Origin: Lagierella massiliensis | Lineage (GTDB): Bacteria; Bacillota; Clostridia; Tissierellales; Peptoniphilaceae | Assembly (NCBI RefSeq): GCF_001407835.1 | Contig: NZ_CYUO01000005.1 | Span: 868,001 to 932,000 of the forward strand | DNA: 64,000 bases | Direction of reading: 5' to 3' | Shown: positions 21,257-57,989 of the stretch, one piece after another | How positions within the stretch are numbered: the stretch's first letter is position 1 | How the letters are laid out: every line of letters starts with the position of its first letter | Notes under the pieces: model-generated | What the model was told of the DNA's origin: nothing | Seen by the model: the letters and a program-made list of their open reading frames with translations, nothing else | The model's database searches: none | Program-made: the position numbers and the translations under genes

Positions 21257-21931
21257 CTAATCAGATATTTTTATAGGTTTGAACTGCAGATAGTCGCTTG
21301 ATGTACAAAAGTACTCAATTCCATCAACGACTCCTTCAACCACATTAACAAGTCCTGGTCCATGTAGATGACCATAGACGCATTTAGTAACCCCATGTTC
21401 TTTTAGGATATAATGAAAATCATTTGGAAGTTTTTCATTAGTAAAAGGTGGATAGTGAAGCATTCCTATTTTATCTTTGCCTTTTGGCGCTGATTTCAAA
21501 GAAAGATCAAGTCTTAATAGCTCTCTTCTGTAAATATTATACTCCTCACTTTCTTCTGTCAGATAATCCCAACCTCTTGTTCCAACTATAAAATAATCAT
21601 TAAATTCAAAATAATTATTTTGTAAAAAGAAAATGCTTTTTAAATTTAAAGAATTATTTTTATTTAGAGAACTCCACCAATAATCGTGATTTCCCTTTAA
21701 AAAAACCTTTTTACCTGGTAATTCTTCTATCCTAATTAAGTCGTGATATGCTTCTTCCAAATTGATAGCCCACGAAATATCTCCAGATACAAGTACTAAA
21801 TCACTATCTTTAACTATTTGTTTCCAATTATGAAAAATTCTTTCTTCATAATCTTCCCATCTATCTCCAAATAGAGTCATGGTCTTTTCTTTCGTATAAT
21901 CCAAATGTAAATCAGAAATACTATAAATCAT
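21257..21931 (-). CDS. Metallophosphoesterase (COG1768-like)
   Basis: A 224-residue calcineurin-like phosphoesterase. The metal ligands are laid out in order: ISDLHLD at the start, LVLVSGDISWAI, FLKGNHDYWW and the final VYGHLHGPG. It matches a Bacillota group of compact phosphohydrolases whose substrate is unknown to me. Eight bases separate it from the YhaN-like ATPase gene. It differs from the nuclease-type phosphoesterase two genes earlier in having no extra C-terminal domain. Confidence 0.88.
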   Translation of the reverse strand: MIYSISDLHLDYTKEKTMTLFGDRWEDYEERIFHNWKQIVKDSDLVLVSGDISWAINLEEAYHDLIRIEELPGKKVFLKGNHDYWWSSLNKNNSLNLKSIFFLQNNYFEFNDYFIVGTRGWDYLTEESEEYNIYRRELLRLDLSLKSAPKGKDKIGMLHYPPFTNEKLPNDFHYILKEHGVTKCVYGHLHGPGLVNVVEGVVDGIEYFCTSSDYLQFKPIKISD

Positions 21932-21939
21932 TTTCTCAC

Positions 21940-24066
21940 CTATAAATTTATAATTTTAACATCTTGATATGACTTTAAAACTTCTAACTCTCTATCCTGA
22001 CAGCTTAATATAATAATTTGATTGTTACTTAGCTTTTTATTCAAGATATAAATTATATCTTTAAGTCTTTTGTCATCCAAGTAATTAAATGCATCATCTA
22101 AAATGAGAAAATCCGATTTATCATATAGTTCAGTACATATGGCTATCTTAAGAACGAGAAAAATTATATCTTGCGAACCTTTACTCAAACTTAAAGATGA
22201 TTTAATATCACTACTTCCATTTCCTTTATAAGAAACGTTTAAAAATTCATCAATATAAAATTTTATATTGTTACCATAAATCGGTTCCAAAAGTGAATTT
22301 ACACTTTTTATAAGTTTTGGAACAAAATTTGCTTTTAATTCCTCAAAAGATTCTTCAACAAGCTTTAAAGTCATCTCAATTATTTTTGACTTATTTTCAA
22401 GCTCATCTATTCTATTAGATGTGCTTTTTTCTTTATCTAATAGACTTGGAAGTTTTATTATTTCACTATCCAATATCTTTATTCGTTCTTTTAATCTTAC
22501 TATCTCATTATAAATTTCATCTTTTTCTTTTCTTAAATCTTCAAGTTCAGTGTTTTCGACCAAATAAAATTCTTTTGAAAATTCTATCTTTTTAAAATTC
22601 GAATTTCCTGTTAAAGTTTTTGTCCTTGTAATAAATTCAAGTCTGGAGTTACAGTCTTTTAAATTGTTTTCACAATTAGAAAGATCTTCATCAAGTTCTT
22701 TTATCTCTCTTATTCCAATATTAAACTTATCATTAATAGTCTTATCGATATCTAACAGAGAATTATTTTTGTCTTCCTCGTCATTTAATAAATACTCTAT
22801 TTCCTTATCTAAATCTTCTATTTTTTTGTAATAAAAATCTCTATCTTTTTTTGCTTTTTCAAAGTTATCTTTATCAAATTTATTTATATTTTGTTTTTGT
22901 ATAACAAAACATATAAGATTAACTACTACAAACCCAATAAATATAGTTAAATTTGTTAGATTTGTATAATTTTTTAGGAGAAAACAAACAATTATTGTAA
23001 ATAAAAATACTGTAAAAAATTTAAATTTACTTAATTTAGAACTTTTGGTACTTGCTTGTACTTTTTCATCAAGATTTTTTGAGATATCTAAATACTTTTT
23101 ATATACTTGTCTTTTTTCTTGAGAAAGCTCATCAAAAGCTTTTTCCAAATACTTCTCTTCTTCTTTTATTTTTAAATACTTTTGAAGGTATGGATCATAT
23201 AACTTTTTAGAATTTTCAATTTCTAACTTCTTTTTCTTTAAGTTGCAAATTTCATTTAATAATTCTTCTTTTTCTTTAAGTATTTTGGAGTCCATTTCTT
23301 GTTTTTCATAAGATAATTGATTTTGTTTTAACTCAAAAAGTTTGTTTTTTTCAATAAACTTCTTTTCCAAACCAGAAAGTCTATCTAATGAGTTATCATA
23401 CTCTTTTTTTAATTCTGTAATTCTTTTTACTTCAGAACTTACAATTCTATATTCTTCATATGCTTTTCCAAGCGGTTTATTAACGTTAGTTTTAGTCCCA
23501 ATATCTCTTTTAAGTCCTATTAAATATTCGACACTTTTTTTACTTGAAGTTAAATCTTCATAGTTTTCCTTATTCTTAAGCATAGTGTCTGTAATATATC
23601 TTGTAGATTCATCTTTAATTCCGACATTGTTCTGTCCAATTATTTTACTGTTATTAAAAACCTCACTACTTACATTAAAAAAGTATTCTCCAGGAAAACT
23701 TTTATTAGACTGTTTATATCCATTTAATGTTTCGGTAATATCTTTACCAGTTTTTTCGTTGTATATATTATATTCACCATTTTGAAAATTTCTATAAACT
23801 CGTAATATTTCTCCATCATTTTCAATTATAATAGAACCCTCATAATTAGAAGAATCCCATGGTCGATACTTTTCTAAATCTTCATTGTATCTGGTAGTTT
23901 TTAAATATGGTTTCACAAAACCATAAAATACACCTTCAATAAATTTAACACATGTGCTTTTCCCTGCTTCATTATCTCCTTTAATTAAAATAAAGTCGTC
24001 TTTTAAGTCGATTGTTTTATTTGTAAATTTTCCAAAGGCAGTTATTTCCAGTTTTAAAAGCTTCAT
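21940..24066 (-). CDS. Rad50/SbcC-like (YhaN-type) ATPase with membrane hairpin in the coiled coil
   Basis: A 708-residue ABC-type ATPase of the SMC/Rad50 class. N-terminal half-ATPase with P-loop KGDNEAGKSTCVKFIEG (about 29-45), long coiled coil, two hydrophobic spans at about 349-389, a second coiled coil, then the C-terminal half with signature LSKGSQDIIFLVLK and Walker B FLILDDAFNYLD, followed by IILSCQD. No zinc-hook CxxC stands at the apex; the two membrane spans take its place, as in my memory of YhaN. It overlaps its nuclease-like partner by four bases (ATGA). Probably a membrane-tethered nuclease complex; substrate unknown. Shorter than B. subtilis YhaN (963 residues). Confidence 0.85.
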   Translation of the reverse strand: MKLLKLEITAFGKFTNKTIDLKDDFILIKGDNEAGKSTCVKFIEGVFYGFVKPYLKTTRYNEDLEKYRPWDSSNYEGSIIIENDGEILRVYRNFQNGEYNIYNEKTGKDITETLNGYKQSNKSFPGEYFFNVSSEVFNNSKIIGQNNVGIKDESTRYITDTMLKNKENYEDLTSSKKSVEYLIGLKRDIGTKTNVNKPLGKAYEEYRIVSSEVKRITELKKEYDNSLDRLSGLEKKFIEKNKLFELKQNQLSYEKQEMDSKILKEKEELLNEICNLKKKKLEIENSKKLYDPYLQKYLKIKEEEKYLEKAFDELSQEKRQVYKKYLDISKNLDEKVQASTKSSKLSKFKFFTVFLFTIIVCFLLKNYTNLTNLTIFIGFVVVNLICFVIQKQNINKFDKDNFEKAKKDRDFYYKKIEDLDKEIEYLLNDEEDKNNSLLDIDKTINDKFNIGIREIKELDEDLSNCENNLKDCNSRLEFITRTKTLTGNSNFKKIEFSKEFYLVENTELEDLRKEKDEIYNEIVRLKERIKILDSEIIKLPSLLDKEKSTSNRIDELENKSKIIEMTLKLVEESFEELKANFVPKLIKSVNSLLEPIYGNNIKFYIDEFLNVSYKGNGSSDIKSSLSLSKGSQDIIFLVLKIAICTELYDKSDFLILDDAFNYLDDKRLKDIIYILNKKLSNNQIIILSCQDRELEVLKSYQDVKIINL

Positions 24067-25160
24067 GAATCCTCCCTCATTAAAGCATTTAATCCATATT
24101 TTAATATTTGTTTTTTTATATCATCACTTTCATTTAATGCATTTACCTTGTTTATAAAAATACCAATATGATTATCTCTATTTAACTCGGATATTTTTTC
24201 TATATCATAGTTTTCTTCAGTATTGTCAATAACTTCAATATAATATACATATTTTTTAAGAGCTTCTTCAAGACCATTTACATCTAAGTCAAAACCTATC
24301 GGAAGTTTTCCCGTAAGAGTCAATCTTATATAATTATTTTTATCACTTACAATAACATTGTTTTTTAAATACTCTACCAAATAGTAGAAATCAAAATTTT
24401 CTCTTAAATCATAGATAACTAAGGTAAAGATTGAACTGGAAATAGGTATTAACTTTGAATATACTCTATGATTTTCAATTTCTCCAAAAATCGCACCATG
24501 AAAACCAGTTTCTTTAAAAGAAAGAGGTTCTATAGATCCAGGATATATTATATTTTCTTTAAGCTTTTGTGGTTTATGAATATGACCAAGAGCAATATAG
24601 TCAAACCCAAGATCTTTGATAGATTCTAACGTTATATTCATATAGTTGATATTAGGATTTAATACATCAGCATGTAACATTAAAATATTAATCTTGTTTT
24701 GATCTAATTTTACATGTTCAAAATATGATAATTTATTTAAAATCCTATCTGTATAACTTATTCCGTAGACATTATAATCTTCAAATTCAAAACATTCTAA
24801 ACTATTATTTTGAAATACAAATACATTTGAAGGCAAGTTCAAATATCTAAACTTTGAAGTTTTCGAATAAGGATCATGATTTCCAAATATTACAAAAATA
24901 TTAACTTCGGGTACTGCTCTAAACAAAGAATTAAGTCTTTCTAAAATTGATATAGTTACATAATTTTCGTTAAATATATCTCCGCATAAAAAAATACAAT
25001 TTACTCTCTTTTCCTTAGCATAAGAAAATAAACTTTCAATTGAATCCCATATATTCTCTCTACGGTTTTCTACTAATTCAACTGGCAAGTCTGAAGAGTA
25101 AAAATTAGATCCCAAGTGAAAGTCTCCACTGTGTAAAAATGTTATCCTATCTTTTTTCAT
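24063..25160 (-). CDS. SbcD/Mre11-like (YhaO-type) exonuclease subunit
   Basis: A 365-residue metallophosphoesterase of the SbcD/Mre11/YhaO kind. Metal-binding motifs come in order: LHSGDFHLGSNF, FLCGDIFNENY, VIFGNHDPY, LMLHADV and ALGHIHKPQ, then PGSIEPLSFKE. The last 120 residues would be the capping and partner-binding region. It should form the nuclease heads of a complex with the YhaN-like ATPase encoded next. Its start lies 14 bases inside the end of the unknown gene upstream, so the three are translated together. Confidence 0.88.
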   Translation of the reverse strand: MKKDRITFLHSGDFHLGSNFYSSDLPVELVENRRENIWDSIESLFSYAKEKRVNCIFLCGDIFNENYVTISILERLNSLFRAVPEVNIFVIFGNHDPYSKTSKFRYLNLPSNVFVFQNNSLECFEFEDYNVYGISYTDRILNKLSYFEHVKLDQNKINILMLHADVLNPNINYMNITLESIKDLGFDYIALGHIHKPQKLKENIIYPGSIEPLSFKETGFHGAIFGEIENHRVYSKLIPISSSIFTLVIYDLRENFDFYYLVEYLKNNVIVSDKNNYIRLTLTGKLPIGFDLDVNGLEEALKKYVYYIEVIDNTEENYDIEKISELNRDNHIGIFINKVNALNESDDIKKQILKYGLNALMREDS

Positions 25161-25776
25161 AATATCTATACTCTTCTTTCCTATCTTGTCTAATAAATAT
25201 CTCCAAGATATCGAAACTTAATTTATATGCATTAAAAATTTTAATGAGTAAATCCCTTATTTTATTTGCTGGAAATTTTGTTTCAATATATACGCTATTT
25301 CCTATTGACTTTGCATTTCTTATCTTGTTTTTCTCCAAACTAAAATAGGTCTTCTTCCGTCCATTAAAATCAGTCTTTTCTGTAAAAGATCTAAATATAA
25401 CTGGATCGAGTTTATAAAAATATTCACAAAGATTTATATATAGTTCATAGTATGAGTTAATCTTTATAATCTCTCCTCTATAGAGTCTATATCCTTCTGG
25501 CTTAGTATAAGTAAAATCGTGATTAAGAGTTACTTTGTTTGTAGTTATTTTACTAAGTTCAAACTCTTTTAATCTTAATTGGATATTTATTGGCTCAATA
25601 GACTCTAAAATTGAATTTGAAATATTCAAAAAATTTTCAATTTTTTCCCTGTCTTTTATTGTTAACTCATATTCTAAAGCTTTATTAAAATATTCTATTT
25701 GATCTTCCAGTGATGTTTTTATATTAAATACAAGCTCTGGATTTTTTTCTGTTAATTGGTCAAAAAATTTTTTCAT
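25147..25776 (-). CDS. Unknown protein in the YhaO/YhaN-like cluster
   Basis: I do not recognise this 209-residue protein as a named family. The first 90 residues are helical and charged. The rest looks like a separate module: a short beta part (YRLYRGEIIKINSYYELY), a helix, then GRKKTYFSLEKNK, IGNSVYIETKFPANKIRDLL and a final LEIFIR. I recall a similar ending, with GRKR...YVETNLSAN, as a C-terminal unit on varied bacterial proteins, but cannot name it. It overlaps the YhaO-like gene by 14 bases and may be a partner of that complex, which is inference. No membrane segment or catalytic motif is seen. Confidence 0.75.
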   Translation of the reverse strand: MKKFFDQLTEKNPELVFNIKTSLEDQIEYFNKALEYELTIKDREKIENFLNISNSILESIEPINIQLRLKEFELSKITTNKVTLNHDFTYTKPEGYRLYRGEIIKINSYYELYINLCEYFYKLDPVIFRSFTEKTDFNGRKKTYFSLEKNKIRNAKSIGNSVYIETKFPANKIRDLLIKIFNAYKLSFDILEIFIRQDRKEEYRYYEKR

Positions 25777-25787
25777 ATAATCCCTCT

Positions 25788-26816
25788 TTAGAGATATTCT
25801 TTTTTCAAATATTCTACAAACTTTCTCACATCATTTAATTCAAAAGTATCCACTTCAAAATCATTATTACTTAGGTCCGTTATTACCGCCTTTAATGGAT
25901 ATGAAGATATAGTCTTTTTGGAATTACTTTCTCTTACTATTTCATATTTATTAAAATTAGAATCTTTAAGCCCTTCAATCAAAACTAAATCATAATCATT
26001 AGAATCTTTCAAAAAATAATTTATGTCTTTTGAAGATTTTTCTATAATTTGATATTTATAATCCGAGTATACTACCGAGGAATATGCTCCATTTAAAAAG
26101 GCAATATTAGAGTCCCTATCATCTTCTAATATAAAGTCATGACCATCATGTTTAATATATTTTACTTTATATCCTTCTGAACTCAACAAATTTATAACTT
26201 TTGATATAAAAGTAGTTTTTCCAGAATTTTTTGCGCCACAAATACAAACTATATTGTCATTTATAAGTTTTTTATATTGAGATGGATAATTTATATTTGA
26301 CAGGATATTAGATTTAAATTTGCTGAAATTTAGCGGAACTCTTTTAGCATTTTCATCATATAGAAGTTCCATAAGCTTATATTTTTTTTCTTCAATTCTA
26401 TTTTCTATAACAGGTACTATACTTTTTGGATATATTGAAGCAAGTGGGTTTAATTTCCCCTCATGTTCAAATGTAATTATCCTATTTTCATTTGAAATAT
26501 AAGTTGATAAAAATTCTGCCACTTCACATCTTATAAATTGCATATCAACTCCTACTATAAAAACATTTTCTGTTTTTGCTTCTTTTAATATTTCAAGAAT
26601 ACCTGAAATAGGCCCTATATCTTTATATTTATCTCTTACAATTTTATAACCTGCTATTAAATTATCAGAATTGTTGTTAGAAATTATTATGGGATAATCT
26701 TTAAATTCATCTACCAGGTTTTCTAAAAAAGTTTTGTTTTTATATTGCAATTTTGCTTTATCATATCCCATTCTGCTACTTTTACCACCTGCAAGAATTC
26801 CTATAGTTAAATTCAT
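25788..26816 (-). CDS. MobA-MobB fusion: molybdenum cofactor guanylyltransferase with MobB GTPase
   Basis: A 342-residue two-domain protein. Residues 1 to about 160 are MobA-like, with the GTP signature LAGGKSSRMGYDKAKLQYK and VGVDMQF; they attach GMP to molybdopterin. From about 168 a MobB domain follows, with P-loop CICGAKNSGKTT, KYIKHDGHDF and DLVLIEGLKDS. The two are separate genes in E. coli; fusions are known elsewhere. The gene abuts moeA (no gap), giving a short cofactor block. Genes for precursor synthesis (moaA, moaC and others) are not in the window. The cofactor product would be the bis-MGD type if the domain acts as in E. coli. Confidence 0.9.
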   Translation of the reverse strand: MNLTIGILAGGKSSRMGYDKAKLQYKNKTFLENLVDEFKDYPIIISNNNSDNLIAGYKIVRDKYKDIGPISGILEILKEAKTENVFIVGVDMQFIRCEVAEFLSTYISNENRIITFEHEGKLNPLASIYPKSIVPVIENRIEEKKYKLMELLYDENAKRVPLNFSKFKSNILSNINYPSQYKKLINDNIVCICGAKNSGKTTFISKVINLLSSEGYKVKYIKHDGHDFILEDDRDSNIAFLNGAYSSVVYSDYKYQIIEKSSKDINYFLKDSNDYDLVLIEGLKDSNFNKYEIVRESNSKKTISSYPLKAVITDLSNNDFEVDTFELNDVRKFVEYLKKEYL

Positions 26817-47722: not shown

Positions 47723-49423
47723 TTATTTCTCTCCTTCGTTAAATTGGAACTTGCCCTGTTCAATCATATCAACTGCCTGTTTGATTGTATTTTCAGTTAT
47801 GTCAATTCCTCCTATTAACCTGGAAATTTCCATTACTCTCTCTTTTTCATCTATAGCTCTGATATTTGAAATTGTATCTAAATCACGCTCACTTTTTTCT
47901 ATTAGCATATGCGATGATGCAAGTGATGCTATTTGTGCAAGGTGTGATATTGTTATTATCTGTCTGGACTTTGAAATCATTTGTAACTTCTCTCCAACAA
48001 GAATAGCTGTTCGTCCACTAATACCAGTATCAACTTCATCAAATATCAAAGTATCCACATTGTCCACTGAAGCTAAGGATGTTTTTAATGCCAACATTAT
48101 TCTTGAAAGCTCTCCTCCAGAAGCAACTTTATTCAAAGGCATCAACGGCTGACCCACATTTGTAGAGATATTAAACTCCACTATGTCCTTTCCCATTGAC
48201 GTGATTTTTTCATCTTCAAAAAAAACAATAGAAAACTTTGCATTTGGCATATTTAAGCCTTTTACATTTTTAAGAATATCCTTTTCAAGATTTTTGCTTA
48301 CTTTCTTTCGTATATCTGTCAGCCTACTACATAGATTTTTACAATCCAAATGCTTTTTATTAATCTCTTTATTCAGTATTTCAATATTTTCTTCTATCTT
48401 TTCTAATATATCAAGTCTTTCCTTAGATTTTTCTCTAAAGTCTATTAATTCTGAAATATCTGATCCATATTTTCTCTTCAGATTTGTAATATTCAATATG
48501 GTTTCATCAAGTAAATGTAATTTTTCTTCATCATAGTACAAGCCGTTTTGATAGTTTTCTATATCTCTATAAACATCTTCAAGTTCATAGTATGAAGACT
48601 CTATTCTATCAGATATTTCAGTTAAATCCAAATCCAGCTCTTTTAACTCCAAAAGCTCAGATACAATCTCAGATAGAGAGCCTAAAACATCAAAGTTTCC
48701 AAATTCACTACCCTTTAAGTTTTCAGATATGCCTGATATAGACATTTTTATCCTATCGATATTACTAAGAACCTTAAATTCATTTTCAATTTCTCTTTCA
48801 TCAAAATTTTCCAAGTCAATGCTCTCTAACTCTTCAATCTGAAACCTTAAAATATCCTTTTCTCTATCTATTTCTTCAGAACTTAAGCTAAGACTTGAAA
48901 GTTCTTTTTTTAAATTTTGTAATTCCTTAAGTTTTTTATCTAAGTCATTCAAAATATTTTTGTTTCCTTCTGGACTGAAATCATCTAATATTTTTATATA
49001 GTTAGATTTGTTCAAAAGGGTTTGATTTTCATTTTGACTATGAATATCTATAAGATCTTTCATCATTTCTTTTAAAAAGCTTAAAGTAACATTTCTACCA
49101 TTAATTCTGTTGTTACTTATTCCTGACTTCTGTGATTCCCTTGTTACAATGAGAACACCATCTTCTAATTCATACCCCATCTCTTTAAATCTATTTAATT
49201 TTTCTTCTGATGATATAATAAATTTTCCTTCTACAATTGAAGAATTTCCATATTTACCAATATAAGACTTTTGAAATCTGTCCCCTATCAGAAGCTTAAG
49301 TGCATTTACAAGTATTGTCTTACCTGCTCCAGTTTCACCAGTGATTACATTGAAATTTGAATCGAATTCAACTTGCAACTTTTCAATAATAACAAAATTT
49401 TGAATATAAAGTTCAGCTAACAT
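47723..49423 (-). CDS. recN: DNA repair protein RecN
   Basis: SMC-like ATPase for double-strand break repair; 566 residues, full length. Half-ATPase with P-loop VITGETGAGKTILVNALKL (about 28-46), coiled coils, then a C-terminal signature LNKVASGGELSRIMLALK and Walker B LIFDEVDTGISGRTAILV, plus TISHLAQIAS. It sits 11 bases after argR, as in B. subtilis, Clostridia and relatives, and overlaps no gene at its end. Confidence 0.97.
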   Translation of the reverse strand: MLAELYIQNFVIIEKLQVEFDSNFNVITGETGAGKTILVNALKLLIGDRFQKSYIGKYGNSSIVEGKFIISSEEKLNRFKEMGYELEDGVLIVTRESQKSGISNNRINGRNVTLSFLKEMMKDLIDIHSQNENQTLLNKSNYIKILDDFSPEGNKNILNDLDKKLKELQNLKKELSSLSLSSEEIDREKDILRFQIEELESIDLENFDEREIENEFKVLSNIDRIKMSISGISENLKGSEFGNFDVLGSLSEIVSELLELKELDLDLTEISDRIESSYYELEDVYRDIENYQNGLYYDEEKLHLLDETILNITNLKRKYGSDISELIDFREKSKERLDILEKIEENIEILNKEINKKHLDCKNLCSRLTDIRKKVSKNLEKDILKNVKGLNMPNAKFSIVFFEDEKITSMGKDIVEFNISTNVGQPLMPLNKVASGGELSRIMLALKTSLASVDNVDTLIFDEVDTGISGRTAILVGEKLQMISKSRQIITISHLAQIASLASSHMLIEKSERDLDTISNIRAIDEKERVMEISRLIGGIDITENTIKQAVDMIEQGKFQFNEGEK

Positions 49424-54473: not shown

Positions 54474-57400
54474 CTACTTTAATTTTAAGGAAATAACTTT
54501 ACTAACTCCTTCTTCCTCCATACTTACCCCATATAGCACATCTGCAATCTCCATTGTAGTTTTTCTATGGGATATCATGATAAATTGAGTTGAATCTGTT
54601 AATGATTTTAAATAATTTGTGTATCTGAAAATATTTGCTTCATCAAGTGCCGCATCTATCTCGTCCAAAATACAAAAAGGCGATGGTCTTGTCTCAAAAA
54701 TAGCAAATAGAAGAGCAACTGCTGTAAGTGCTTTTTCTCCCCCAGATAAAAGTGTCAAACTTTGTAATTTTTTTCCAGGAGGCTCTGCAACTATTTCAAC
54801 TCCAGACTCTAAAGGATTTGTTCCCTCTAACTTAAGCTCTGCATTTCCTCCATCAAAAAGAATTTTAAAAATCTTTTGAAATCTACCATTTATATCTTTA
54901 AACGATGTTGTAAACATCTCTTTCATTTCCTTGTTAAGATTTTTAATTATCTCCTCAATATCATTTTTAGATTTCATCAAGTCGTTCTTCTGGTTTAAAA
55001 GAAAATTAAGGTCTTCATCAACGATTTTAAATTCTTCAATTGTATCTACACTGAAATAACCAAGTTCTCTTAAATCTTTTTTTAATATTTTAAGTTCTTT
55101 TCTTGAAGGTTCCTCTACCTCTTCTACTAACGTAAACTTATCAATATAAACCGAATACTCCTCAAGACAATTATTACGTATTCTAGAAATATTTGAATTT
55201 AAATTTTCAATTTTTTCAAAATTCAACCCCATTGAGTATTCTAATTTTACATTTATCTCCTTATTGTCTCGTAGCTCTTCTCTTCTTTCCAAAAGTTCAT
55301 TTTGTCTCGATTTGAAATCAACTTCATTTTCTTCTAAAATATTTTGAATTTCAATAATCTTTCTATTTAAAACTTTAAGTTCAGAATTGTATTTTTCAAT
55401 ATTTTCTCTATTAACTCTCAAATCTAATTCTACTTTTTCTTTAGACTCCATATCAAGCTTAAGTCTATAAGAAAAATCTTCATTTTCATTTTTAATATCT
55501 TTTTCTTTATTTAATAAGATATTTAAATCCCTCTCTAAGCTCTCTATTTTAGAGTTAATATTTATCTTTTCGATTTCTTGTTTTCTATTTTCAGAGTTAT
55601 TGTTTTCAAACTTTAATTTCAACTCATCATTCTCTATACTTAGTCTTTGAATTTCTTCTTTTATGCTTTCAGGATTTTCTAAATCTAATTCTTCAAAAGA
55701 AATATTTAATATGCTTTCATACTTACTAACAGCTTTTTCATATAATGATTGTTTTACTTTTATATCATTGGAAAGAATTTGAATTTTTTCTTCTAATTCA
55801 ATCTTTTCTTTTTCTTCTATATTTTTTTCTACTTCAATAAGCTTATGTTCTTCATGGTAATTTTTTATTAAGATGTCCAATTTCTTAAGTTCTTTAATTA
55901 ATTTCTCTTTTTCATTTGACATCTGTTTAGTTTCTTTTTCAAGTTCTAAAATCTTATTGTTTCTATTTAATATTTCTGTATTAGAAGATTTTCCAGTATA
56001 TCCGCCTACTATAGATCCCCATGAGTTAAATATCTCTCCGTCAAGGGTGACAATTCTATACCTATTATATTTTTTAGAAACTTCTATTGCATCTTCAAGA
56101 TTATAAACTACTAATGTATTATTTAAAAAGTGATTTATAAGGCCCTTAAACTTTTTGTCACAGTTAATTAATTCTGAAGCAATAGCCAAAATTTTAGGAT
56201 CCTCAAATTTAAAATTTGAATCATGTTTATTTATTTTATTAAGAGGTAAAAATGTTAGTCTTCCAATTCGTTCTGACTTTAAAAATTCTATTAATACCTT
56301 AGCATCATATTCATTTTCAACTACAACATTTTGTAAAGAGCCTCCTAAGGCGTTATTAATTGCAATAAGATATTTATCTTCGACTTCAATTAAATCTGCC
56401 AAGGTTCCAATGCACTTGTCTTTTAAGTTAGTTTTTTTAATACGATTAAAAAAATTTGAAACCTGCTTACTATATCCTTCGTAATTATTTCTAACATTTA
56501 TATAGAAATTAAGTTCCCTATCTTTTGTCTGTAGTTCAACTTCAACCTTATGATACTTTTCGTTTAATTTTGTATAATCATCTTTACAAAACTCGATTTT
56601 ATTTTTTAATTCTTCAATCTCTGATACTTGTCCAAAAACTTTATTTCTAACTTCATTATAGATTTTATTTAAATTATTATAATCTTGTCTTAATTTTTTT
56701 AACTCTTCTTCTAAAGTATGTTTATCCTGGGAAAGTTTTGAAATATCCTCTTTTCGACTTTCAAAAATCCTTTCTCTGGTAAGCTTTTCTACCTGTATAT
56801 TATTCAAAGTTTCTTTTAAAGAAAGAATTTTAGATTCTTTTTCATTTAGTAATAAATTTAAACTATCTATCTCTTTCTTAAATTCTAATACTTTACAATT
56901 GACATTCTCAAGTTCTTTTTTCCTATTGAGCAAAGAGTTATTTATTTCTATTTTTTCTACATCTATTTCTTCAGATTTTATTTTATTTGTTTCCAATTTT
57001 TCTTCAAAATACTTAATCTCTTTTGAAATTCTATCAATTTCATTATTGCCATTCAAAACCCTTTCTTCAGTAAGCTTGAGTTTAAGATTGTAATCTTGAA
57101 TTTTATCTTTTACAGAACTTTCATCCGTCGAAAGTCTTTTTATCTCTTCTTCCAAACTTTTAAGACTATTACTCTCTTCTTCAATCTTTGGTTCAATTTT
57201 TGAAATAAGATCGTTATAGTAGTCTATTTCTTCTTTAATTGACTTATTTTCTCTTATTACTTCATTGTATTTATTTTGTATTATCTCAACATCTACTAAG
57301 TAATAATAAAGATCTAAAAGCTTTATATCCTTTGTAAGTTTTAACCCAATGGTTGCTTTCTTAGCTTGCTTTTCAAGATAGTCTCTATTTTCTTGTTTTT

Positions 57401-57989
57401 GTATTAAAACATCTTCAATTCTTCCAAGATTTGTAACTGTCTTGTCAAGCTTTTTTAAAGCTTCTTCCTTCTTATACTTATACTTCGAAATACCAGAAGC
57501 TTCTTCAAATATATATCTTCTGTCTTCACTCTTATTAGAAAGAATCTCATCAATTCTACCTTGTCCGATAATAGAATACCCTTCCTTACCTATACCAGTA
57601 TCCATAAAAAGTTCTCTTATATCTTTAAGACGACAAGCTTTTTTATTGATGTAGTACTGAGACTCTCCTGTTCTAAAAACTCTTCTTGTAACAACTACCT
57701 TTTCATATTCTATAGGTATCCACTTTTCGCTATTATCAAATGATAGAGAAACTGAAGCAAAATTTAATGGCGCAATTTTTTCTGTACCTGAAAATATAAC
57801 ATCTTCCATCTTGCTTCCACGAAGTGACTTTGCAGATTGTTCTCCCAAAACCCATCTTATGGCGTCAGAGATATTTGACTTTCCACTTCCATTAGGTCCA
57901 ACTATGGCACATATAGGATTATTAAATTGTAAATTTACTTTATCTTTAAAAGATTTAAAACCCTTTAATTCAACCGCTTCTAATTTCAC
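54474..57989 (-). CDS. smc: Chromosome segregation ATPase SMC
   Basis: Core of condensin Smc-ScpAB; 1171 residues. N-terminal ATPase half with AIVGPNGSGKSNISDAIRWVLGEQSAKSLRGSKMEDVIFSG, a coiled coil, the hinge (about 520-660, with VGGYTGKSSN at its end), the second coiled coil, and the C-terminal half with LLSGGEKALTAVALLFAI and the Walker B FCILDEIDAALDEANI. Starts at GTG, directly after the radical SAM stop. The coiled coils are rich in Lys/Glu/Asn. Partners scpA and scpB are at 45.3-46.6 kb. Confidence 0.97.
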   Translation of the reverse strand: MKLEAVELKGFKSFKDKVNLQFNNPICAIVGPNGSGKSNISDAIRWVLGEQSAKSLRGSKMEDVIFSGTEKIAPLNFASVSLSFDNSEKWIPIEYEKVVVTRRVFRTGESQYYINKKACRLKDIRELFMDTGIGKEGYSIIGQGRIDEILSNKSEDRRYIFEEASGISKYKYKKEEALKKLDKTVTNLGRIEDVLIQKQENRDYLEKQAKKATIGLKLTKDIKLLDLYYYLVDVEIIQNKYNEVIRENKSIKEEIDYYNDLISKIEPKIEEESNSLKSLEEEIKRLSTDESSVKDKIQDYNLKLKLTEERVLNGNNEIDRISKEIKYFEEKLETNKIKSEEIDVEKIEINNSLLNRKKELENVNCKVLEFKKEIDSLNLLLNEKESKILSLKETLNNIQVEKLTRERIFESRKEDISKLSQDKHTLEEELKKLRQDYNNLNKIYNEVRNKVFGQVSEIEELKNKIEFCKDDYTKLNEKYHKVEVELQTKDRELNFYINVRNNYEGYSKQVSNFFNRIKKTNLKDKCIGTLADLIEVEDKYLIAINNALGGSLQNVVVENEYDAKVLIEFLKSERIGRLTFLPLNKINKHDSNFKFEDPKILAIASELINCDKKFKGLINHFLNNTLVVYNLEDAIEVSKKYNRYRIVTLDGEIFNSWGSIVGGYTGKSSNTEILNRNNKILELEKETKQMSNEKEKLIKELKKLDILIKNYHEEHKLIEVEKNIEEKEKIELEEKIQILSNDIKVKQSLYEKAVSKYESILNISFEELDLENPESIKEEIQRLSIENDELKLKFENNNSENRKQEIEKININSKIESLERDLNILLNKEKDIKNENEDFSYRLKLDMESKEKVELDLRVNRENIEKYNSELKVLNRKIIEIQNILEENEVDFKSRQNELLERREELRDNKEINVKLEYSMGLNFEKIENLNSNISRIRNNCLEEYSVYIDKFTLVEEVEEPSRKELKILKKDLRELGYFSVDTIEEFKIVDEDLNFLLNQKNDLMKSKNDIEEIIKNLNKEMKEMFTTSFKDINGRFQKIFKILFDGGNAELKLEGTNPLESGVEIVAEPPGKKLQSLTLLSGGEKALTAVALLFAIFETRPSPFCILDEIDAALDEANIFRYTNYLKSLTDSTQFIMISHRKTTMEIADVLYGVSMEEEGVSKVISLKLK

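Follow-up and report, generated by a model that had tools for sequence, protein, structure and literature searches.

The closest described relatives of the locus analysed here are SbcEF and the SbcCD/Mre11-Rad50 complexes. SbcEF is the literature name of the YhaO/YhaN pair in Bacillota, with YhaN as SbcE. A 2010 paper by Krishnamurthy et al., cited in PMC3896406 and PMC4205851, ties SbcE to double-strand-break repair in its title; yhaO and yhaN of Bacillus pumilus were listed in the LexA/SOS regulon in PMC3896406, in which a yhaONM cluster is also named, and SbcE was reported among the SsbA-interacting proteins (PMC7031210). The window (the whole stretch of 64,000 nucleotides that was analysed, from a 1.83 Mb genome of the Lagierella/Mediannikoviicoccus group) carries such a pair on its minus strand, preceded by a gene for a 209-residue protein designated here as U209. 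The YhaO/YhaN pair is known; a gene for a protein of predicted SeqA fold beside the pair in one clade is new. The results of this work are the hydrophobic hairpin of YhaN, the gene order, the SeqA fold in the predicted model of U209 and its single-clade distribution.

The locus and its features

The main features are given below with their coordinates in the window, strand, assignment and basis.

25147-25776, minus strand: U209, 209 residues, N-terminal helical bundle and C-terminal domain of predicted SeqA fold (open reading frame; 7 close orthologues; AlphaFold2 model)
25195-25485, minus strand: residues 98-194 of U209, predicted SeqA-like domain (structural match to 1lrr_A, E. coli SeqA, in VIA-align; 20-domain profile)
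24063-25160, minus strand: YhaO/SbcF-like nuclease of the Mre11/SbcD family, 365 residues (Pfam Metallophos; NCBIfam sbcd below cut-off; motifs)
21940-24066, minus strand: YhaN/SbcE-like Rad50-type ATPase, 708 residues (Pfam AAA_27; position after yhaO)
22900-23034, minus strand: residues 345-389 of YhaN, hydrophobic hairpin and predicted anchor in the membrane where the coiled coil turns (two spans; helix break in the model)

An earlier reading of this DNA, made without database searches (the sequence-only reading), had described three overlapping genes, and the open reading frames on the minus strand agree with it, with overlaps of 14 bases between U209 and yhaO and of 4 bases between yhaO and yhaN.

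Assignment of the YhaO/YhaN pair

YhaO was matched by Pfam Metallophos (E 3.1e-15) with its metal motifs intact (DFH, GDI, GNHD, LHAD and GHIH), and by NCBIfam sbcd at E 1.4e-18, which is under the cut-off of that model. The N-terminus of YhaN was matched by the YhaN-type family AAA_27 at 45.8 bits (Pfam cut-off 22), a family to which B. subtilis gave a control match, and a Walker A motif (GDNEAGKS), an ABC-type signature (SLSKGS) and a Walker B motif (FLILDDAF) were read from its sequence. The nuclease and the ATPase had been called SbcD/YhaO-like and Rad50/YhaN-like, respectively, and both calls are supported by these matches and motifs. YhaO/YhaN is a Mre11/Rad50-type pair that is already known as SbcEF. 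The proposal that the three genes form an undescribed system was not supported, since the pair is the named SbcEF and the hairpin is ordinary for its family.

Homologues of YhaO were found in 47 of the 61 sampled genomes of the family, yhaN stood directly after yhaO at 44 of the 45 examined family loci, and in a phylum-wide sample of 20 loci, each from a different genome, all 20 had the yhaO-yhaN pair. Two loci (L087 and L106) carried broken frames, which point to frameshifts or assembly errors: yhaN was split into frames of 307 and 419 residues in G036, and yhaO was cut to 231 residues and followed by a 99-residue frame in G022.

The locus resembles SbcEF of B. subtilis and other Bacillota in its AAA_27 ATPase, its Mre11-like nuclease and the tight yhaO-yhaN order, and the relatives sampled here likewise have a mid-protein hydrophobic span and lack a zinc hook. 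It differs from SbcEF in the length of the ATPase (708 residues, against about 800-1200 in most relatives outside the family), in the extra gene of predicted SeqA fold upstream, and in the metallophosphoesterase gene downstream of yhaN, where B. subtilis has yhaM. With SbcCD/Mre11-Rad50 the locus shares the nuclease and ATPase classes and the presumed end-processing mechanism, whereas YhaN lacks a CxxC zinc hook and has a membrane-type hairpin, and the sbcd match of YhaO lies below cut-off. SbcC (TIGR00618) gave no match above cut-off in the genome of the window, a search that is uninformative on the absence of SbcCD because only 1 of the 14 control genomes passes it.

Predicted SeqA fold in U209

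No Pfam match was obtained for U209 up to E 1, and neither PADLOC nor PHROGs yielded anything of use for it. In the AlphaFold2 model, which has a mean pLDDT (predicted local distance difference test) of 79.8, the N-terminal part is a helical bundle and the C-terminal part an alpha/beta domain. In the VIA-align comparison, which is a re-check of the candidates of Foldseek and in which folds missed by Foldseek would not appear, three SeqA chains ranked first (Z 9.7-9.9, root-mean-square deviation 2.2 Å). The best match was E. coli SeqA 1lrr_A (Z 9.9, 94 residues aligned, residues 98-194 of the model against 72-180 of SeqA), and the next rows, at Z <=7.7, concerned the helical part of U209.

The sequence comparisons gave weak but independent support, and the NCBIfam SeqA model (E 0.063, 13 bits, cut-off 185) met U209 in the same region as the structural match. 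U209 was aligned to the PDB SeqA sequence at E 0.63 and had no match to Pfam SeqA, and a homologue (L035_3) reached E 0.0043 against Pfam SeqA, below its cut-off. A profile built from 20 member domains scored 15.3 bits against SeqA, as compared with 8.8 bits for the best of 2000 shuffles and -1.5 for the reversed sequence, and hhalign gave P 1.3e-4. Because the structural and sequence lines agree, each of them weak alone, the C-terminal half of U209 is very probably a divergent SeqA fold, as predicted from the model. U209 had earlier been presented as an unknown protein, which stands as regards Pfam but no longer as regards its C-terminal half, with the predicted fold of the DNA-binding protein SeqA. 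This fold gives a testable function, DNA binding, to a protein otherwise without a database match.

Compared with the C-terminal domain of SeqA (PF03925), U209 shares the predicted fold and a GRxxxYF motif, in which SeqA R116-T117-R118 is aligned to U209 R140-K141-K142; the two differ in sequence (about 12-13% identity), and the part in front of the domain, which in SeqA is a multimerisation domain, is modelled in U209 as a helical bundle, the SeqA matches covering only residues 98-194. GATC-DNA is contacted in SeqA by Arg116, Thr117, Arg118, Asn150 and Asn152 (PMC6225831), and these residues are aligned in U209 to Arg140, Lys141, Lys142, Lys167 and Pro169, respectively. The basic loop is therefore kept and both GATC-contact asparagines are lost, with neither position being Asn in the aligned orthologues. 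These replacements bear on whether U209 might, like SeqA, read methylated or hemimethylated DNA and steer the nuclease to or from newly replicated DNA. Such a role would suit the fold, the other N6/N4-type methylases encoded in the genome and the occurrence of the domain in restriction enzymes, but it is improbable in view of the lost asparagines and of the genome search for a D12-type Dam methylase (PF02086), which found no match and no Dam partner for U209. On the same two grounds, the reading of Dam-type methylation by U209 was set aside, and U209 is expected, from the model, to bind DNA without SeqA-type GATC reading.

Distribution of U209 and its place before yhaO

Seven close orthologues of U209 were found (G000, G031, G057, G049, G018, G011 and G130), all of them between mobAB and yhaO. 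Among the named records, U209 identity was 84% for Mediannikoviicoccus vaginalis and 57% for Lagierella massiliensis, with Gallicola and Miniphocaeibacter further off. U209 lay upstream of yhaO at only 5 of the 45 examined family loci, most of the others having genes unrelated to U209 in that position, and none of the 20 phylum-wide loci had a U209-like gene there. The five U209 carriers placed in the YhaO tree formed one group (ultrafast bootstrap 96, Shimodaira-Hasegawa-like approximate likelihood ratio test 81), whose sister is without U209, and the simplest history is a single insertion followed by descent. Searches of viral contigs and, by tblastn, of plasmid and phage collections gave no relatives of U209.

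U209 had been proposed as a dedicated subunit of the nuclease complex, supported if the gene recurred beside such pairs in unrelated genomes and refuted if its homologues were scattered without them. The proposal was supported in part: the close orthologues always stand beside the pair, directly upstream of yhaO in 7 of 7 cases, while distant homologues are scattered without it and the gene is missing from most family loci and from all those sampled across the phylum. A general obligate subunit was rejected, as most YhaO/YhaN loci lack the gene. U209 is read as a lineage-specific, probably DNA-binding protein of predicted SeqA fold and not as a general subunit.

The gene order on the minus strand is moeA, a mobAB fusion, U209, yhaO, yhaN, the metallophosphoesterase gene, nagB and a CYTH-like gene, tightly packed, the labels moeA, nagB and CYTH-like being from sequence inspection. 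In such an operon, U209 could act on its own in DNA binding or regulation, its gene having been inserted among housekeeping genes and the protein making no contact with YhaO/YhaN, its adjacency being one ancestral insertion inherited by descent. We regard this as a plausible alternative that falls short of probable. It accounts for the single clade of carriers in the YhaO tree, for moeA, mobAB and nagB as functionally unrelated neighbours, and for the distant homologues that stand alone beside choloylglycine hydrolase, acetyltransferase and other unrelated genes; it sits less well with the adjacency to yhaO, which survives divergence of U209 to 38% identity as well as changes in spacing.

Hydrophobic hairpin in YhaN

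YhaN has no CxxC zinc hook in its 708 residues, as the sequence-only reading had stated, and its two hydrophobic spans at the turn of the coiled coil, put there at about residues 349-389, were located at 345-363 (Kyte-Doolittle mean 2.01) and 371-389 (2.34). In the AlphaFold2 model, with a mean pLDDT of only 68.6 and a poor rendering of the N-terminal head, helices run from 198 to 367 and from 371 to 448, with a break at 368-370 between the spans. Two spans anywhere in the protein were obtained in 44 of 1000 shuffles of YhaN; as shuffling makes the evidence from a single sequence weak, the case for the spans rests on conservation. One or two mid-protein hydrophobic spans, without CxxC there, were present in all 43 full-length YhaN proteins of the family and in 19 of the 20 sampled across the phylum. 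Other coiled-coil ATPases encoded in the same genome mostly lacked such spans: the RecN-like protein (47723-49423) and a DndD-like protein had no spans, and SMC (54474-57989) had one marginal span near the C-terminus.

Judged by these relatives, YhaN as a rule carries a membrane-type hairpin where other Rad50-type proteins have the zinc hook, and it is probably anchored in the cell membrane; a surface-shaving proteome lists YhaN of S. haemolyticus among the membrane proteins (PMC7137321). The membrane-anchored complex proposed earlier is thus kept as a probable property, but as the family norm and not as something special to the trio; a hairpin peculiar to this locus was rejected, since nearly all relatives carry it. 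The wide sampling indicates that YhaN ATPases generally have a membrane-type hairpin at the position of the zinc hook of Rad50, and a repair complex about which little is understood would then lie at the membrane, the site where incoming DNA is handled.

SeqA-like domain in other proteins

In profile searches within the order, the SeqA-like domain was found in 27 of 249 genomes. It occurs in stand-alone proteins of 212-237 residues in unrelated settings, in a 361-residue protein whose gene adjoins two others, one for an HNH protein and one for the R subunit of a type I restriction system, and in several GmrSD proteins, and no Pfam model recognises it at threshold in U209 or in these proteins. 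One stand-alone protein (L039:7359-7997) ends abruptly inside the domain beside a transposase-like frame and was possibly cut by an insertion. In two type IV restriction proteins of the GmrSD class (L044:5932-8457 and L045:3923-6448), the domain occupies a stretch to which Pfam assigns nothing, with GmrSD_C on one side and DUF4268 on the other. The 2015 survey of GmrSD architectures lists three additional domains, DUF4268, DUF4357 and DNA_binding_1, with other stretches left unassigned, and the term SeqA is absent from it (PMC4619093). U209 resembles these enzymes in its C-terminal domain and differs from them in having no GmrS or GmrD domain and in its repair-type operon. The testable function of DNA binding extends to the unassigned stretch in some of these GmrSD enzymes.

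The occurrence of the domain in restriction enzymes is also the ground on which an antiphage defence module, a Lamassu-like set of SMC, nuclease and sensor, might be considered for the locus, together with PADLOC matches of YhaN to LmuB (E 5e-8) and of YhaO to PDC-S10 (E 1.8e-7). PADLOC gave weak matches only over the trio (LmuB, PDC-S10 and PtuA) and none for U209, and we consider a defence module very unlikely: the spread of YhaO through the family and of YhaN-type ATPases far beyond it is as expected of core repair, the neighbours in the window are housekeeping genes with no mobile or island setting seen at the locus, and U209 is absent from the plasmid and phage collections searched by tblastn.

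The presence of the domain in GmrSD proteins and next to a gene of type I restriction, both of which act on DNA, was counted for the SeqA-fold DNA-binding reading of U209. It is conceivable, though we put it forward with clear reserve, that Bacillota have a family of SeqA-fold DNA-binding modules, not modelled before and outside gammaproteobacterial replication control, which would serve as the targeting part of several DNA-cutting machines: as a fused domain of GmrSD, through a type I restriction operon, and in membrane-tethered SbcEF as a dedicated accessory subunit.

Proposed mechanism

YhaO and YhaN would form an SbcEF-type, Mre11/Rad50-like end-processing complex, in which the ATP-driven heads of YhaN are presumed to hold DNA ends and to gate the metal-dependent nuclease YhaO. 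The coiled coil of YhaN would have a membrane hairpin at its end rather than a zinc hook, and with the hairpin in that place the complex is proposed to work on the cytoplasmic side of the membrane. One clade of the family appears to have gained U209, with its helical bundle and predicted SeqA-fold domain, ahead of yhaO, and because of its steady place there, U209 is suggested to supply DNA to the nuclease, most likely as an accessory factor that would bring or hold DNA for YhaO/YhaN.

We hold this overall reading, an SbcEF end-processing complex with U209 as a clade-specific, SeqA-fold accessory DNA-binding factor, with about even confidence. The physical partnership of U209 with YhaO/YhaN, which is drawn from adjacency in an operon with unrelated genes, is put a little below that level. 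Several points weigh against the reading: the U209 model, on which the fold call rests, was built from six orthologues and has a pTM (predicted template modelling score) of 0.53; the Foldseek top row is SeqA with a probability of 0.99 and E 0.15, an E-value that is not significant alone; the spacing of U209 and yhaO varies among relatives, with overlaps of 14 and 17 bases against a gap of 8 bases; the moeA, mobAB, nagB and CYTH-like genes in the operon make adjacency weak evidence of joint function; and most YhaO/YhaN pairs are without U209.

Neighbouring genes and another locus of the genome

The two genes that flank the trio are as follows.

21257-21931, minus strand: metallophosphoesterase, 224 residues, directly downstream of yhaN (Metallophos E 2.2e-12)
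25788-26816: MobA-MobB fusion (mobAB), 342 residues, adjoining moeA and preceding the repair genes

A metallophosphoesterase gene was the next gene after yhaN at 36 of 44 family loci, and the 224-residue protein is closer to a standing third partner of the pair than the 209-residue gene product. Elsewhere in the same genome, L190 (G000:C4:131000-142000) carries a 678-residue DndD-like ATPase (identified by eye), a helicase and a 921-residue protein, and resembles a defence or DNA-modification locus.

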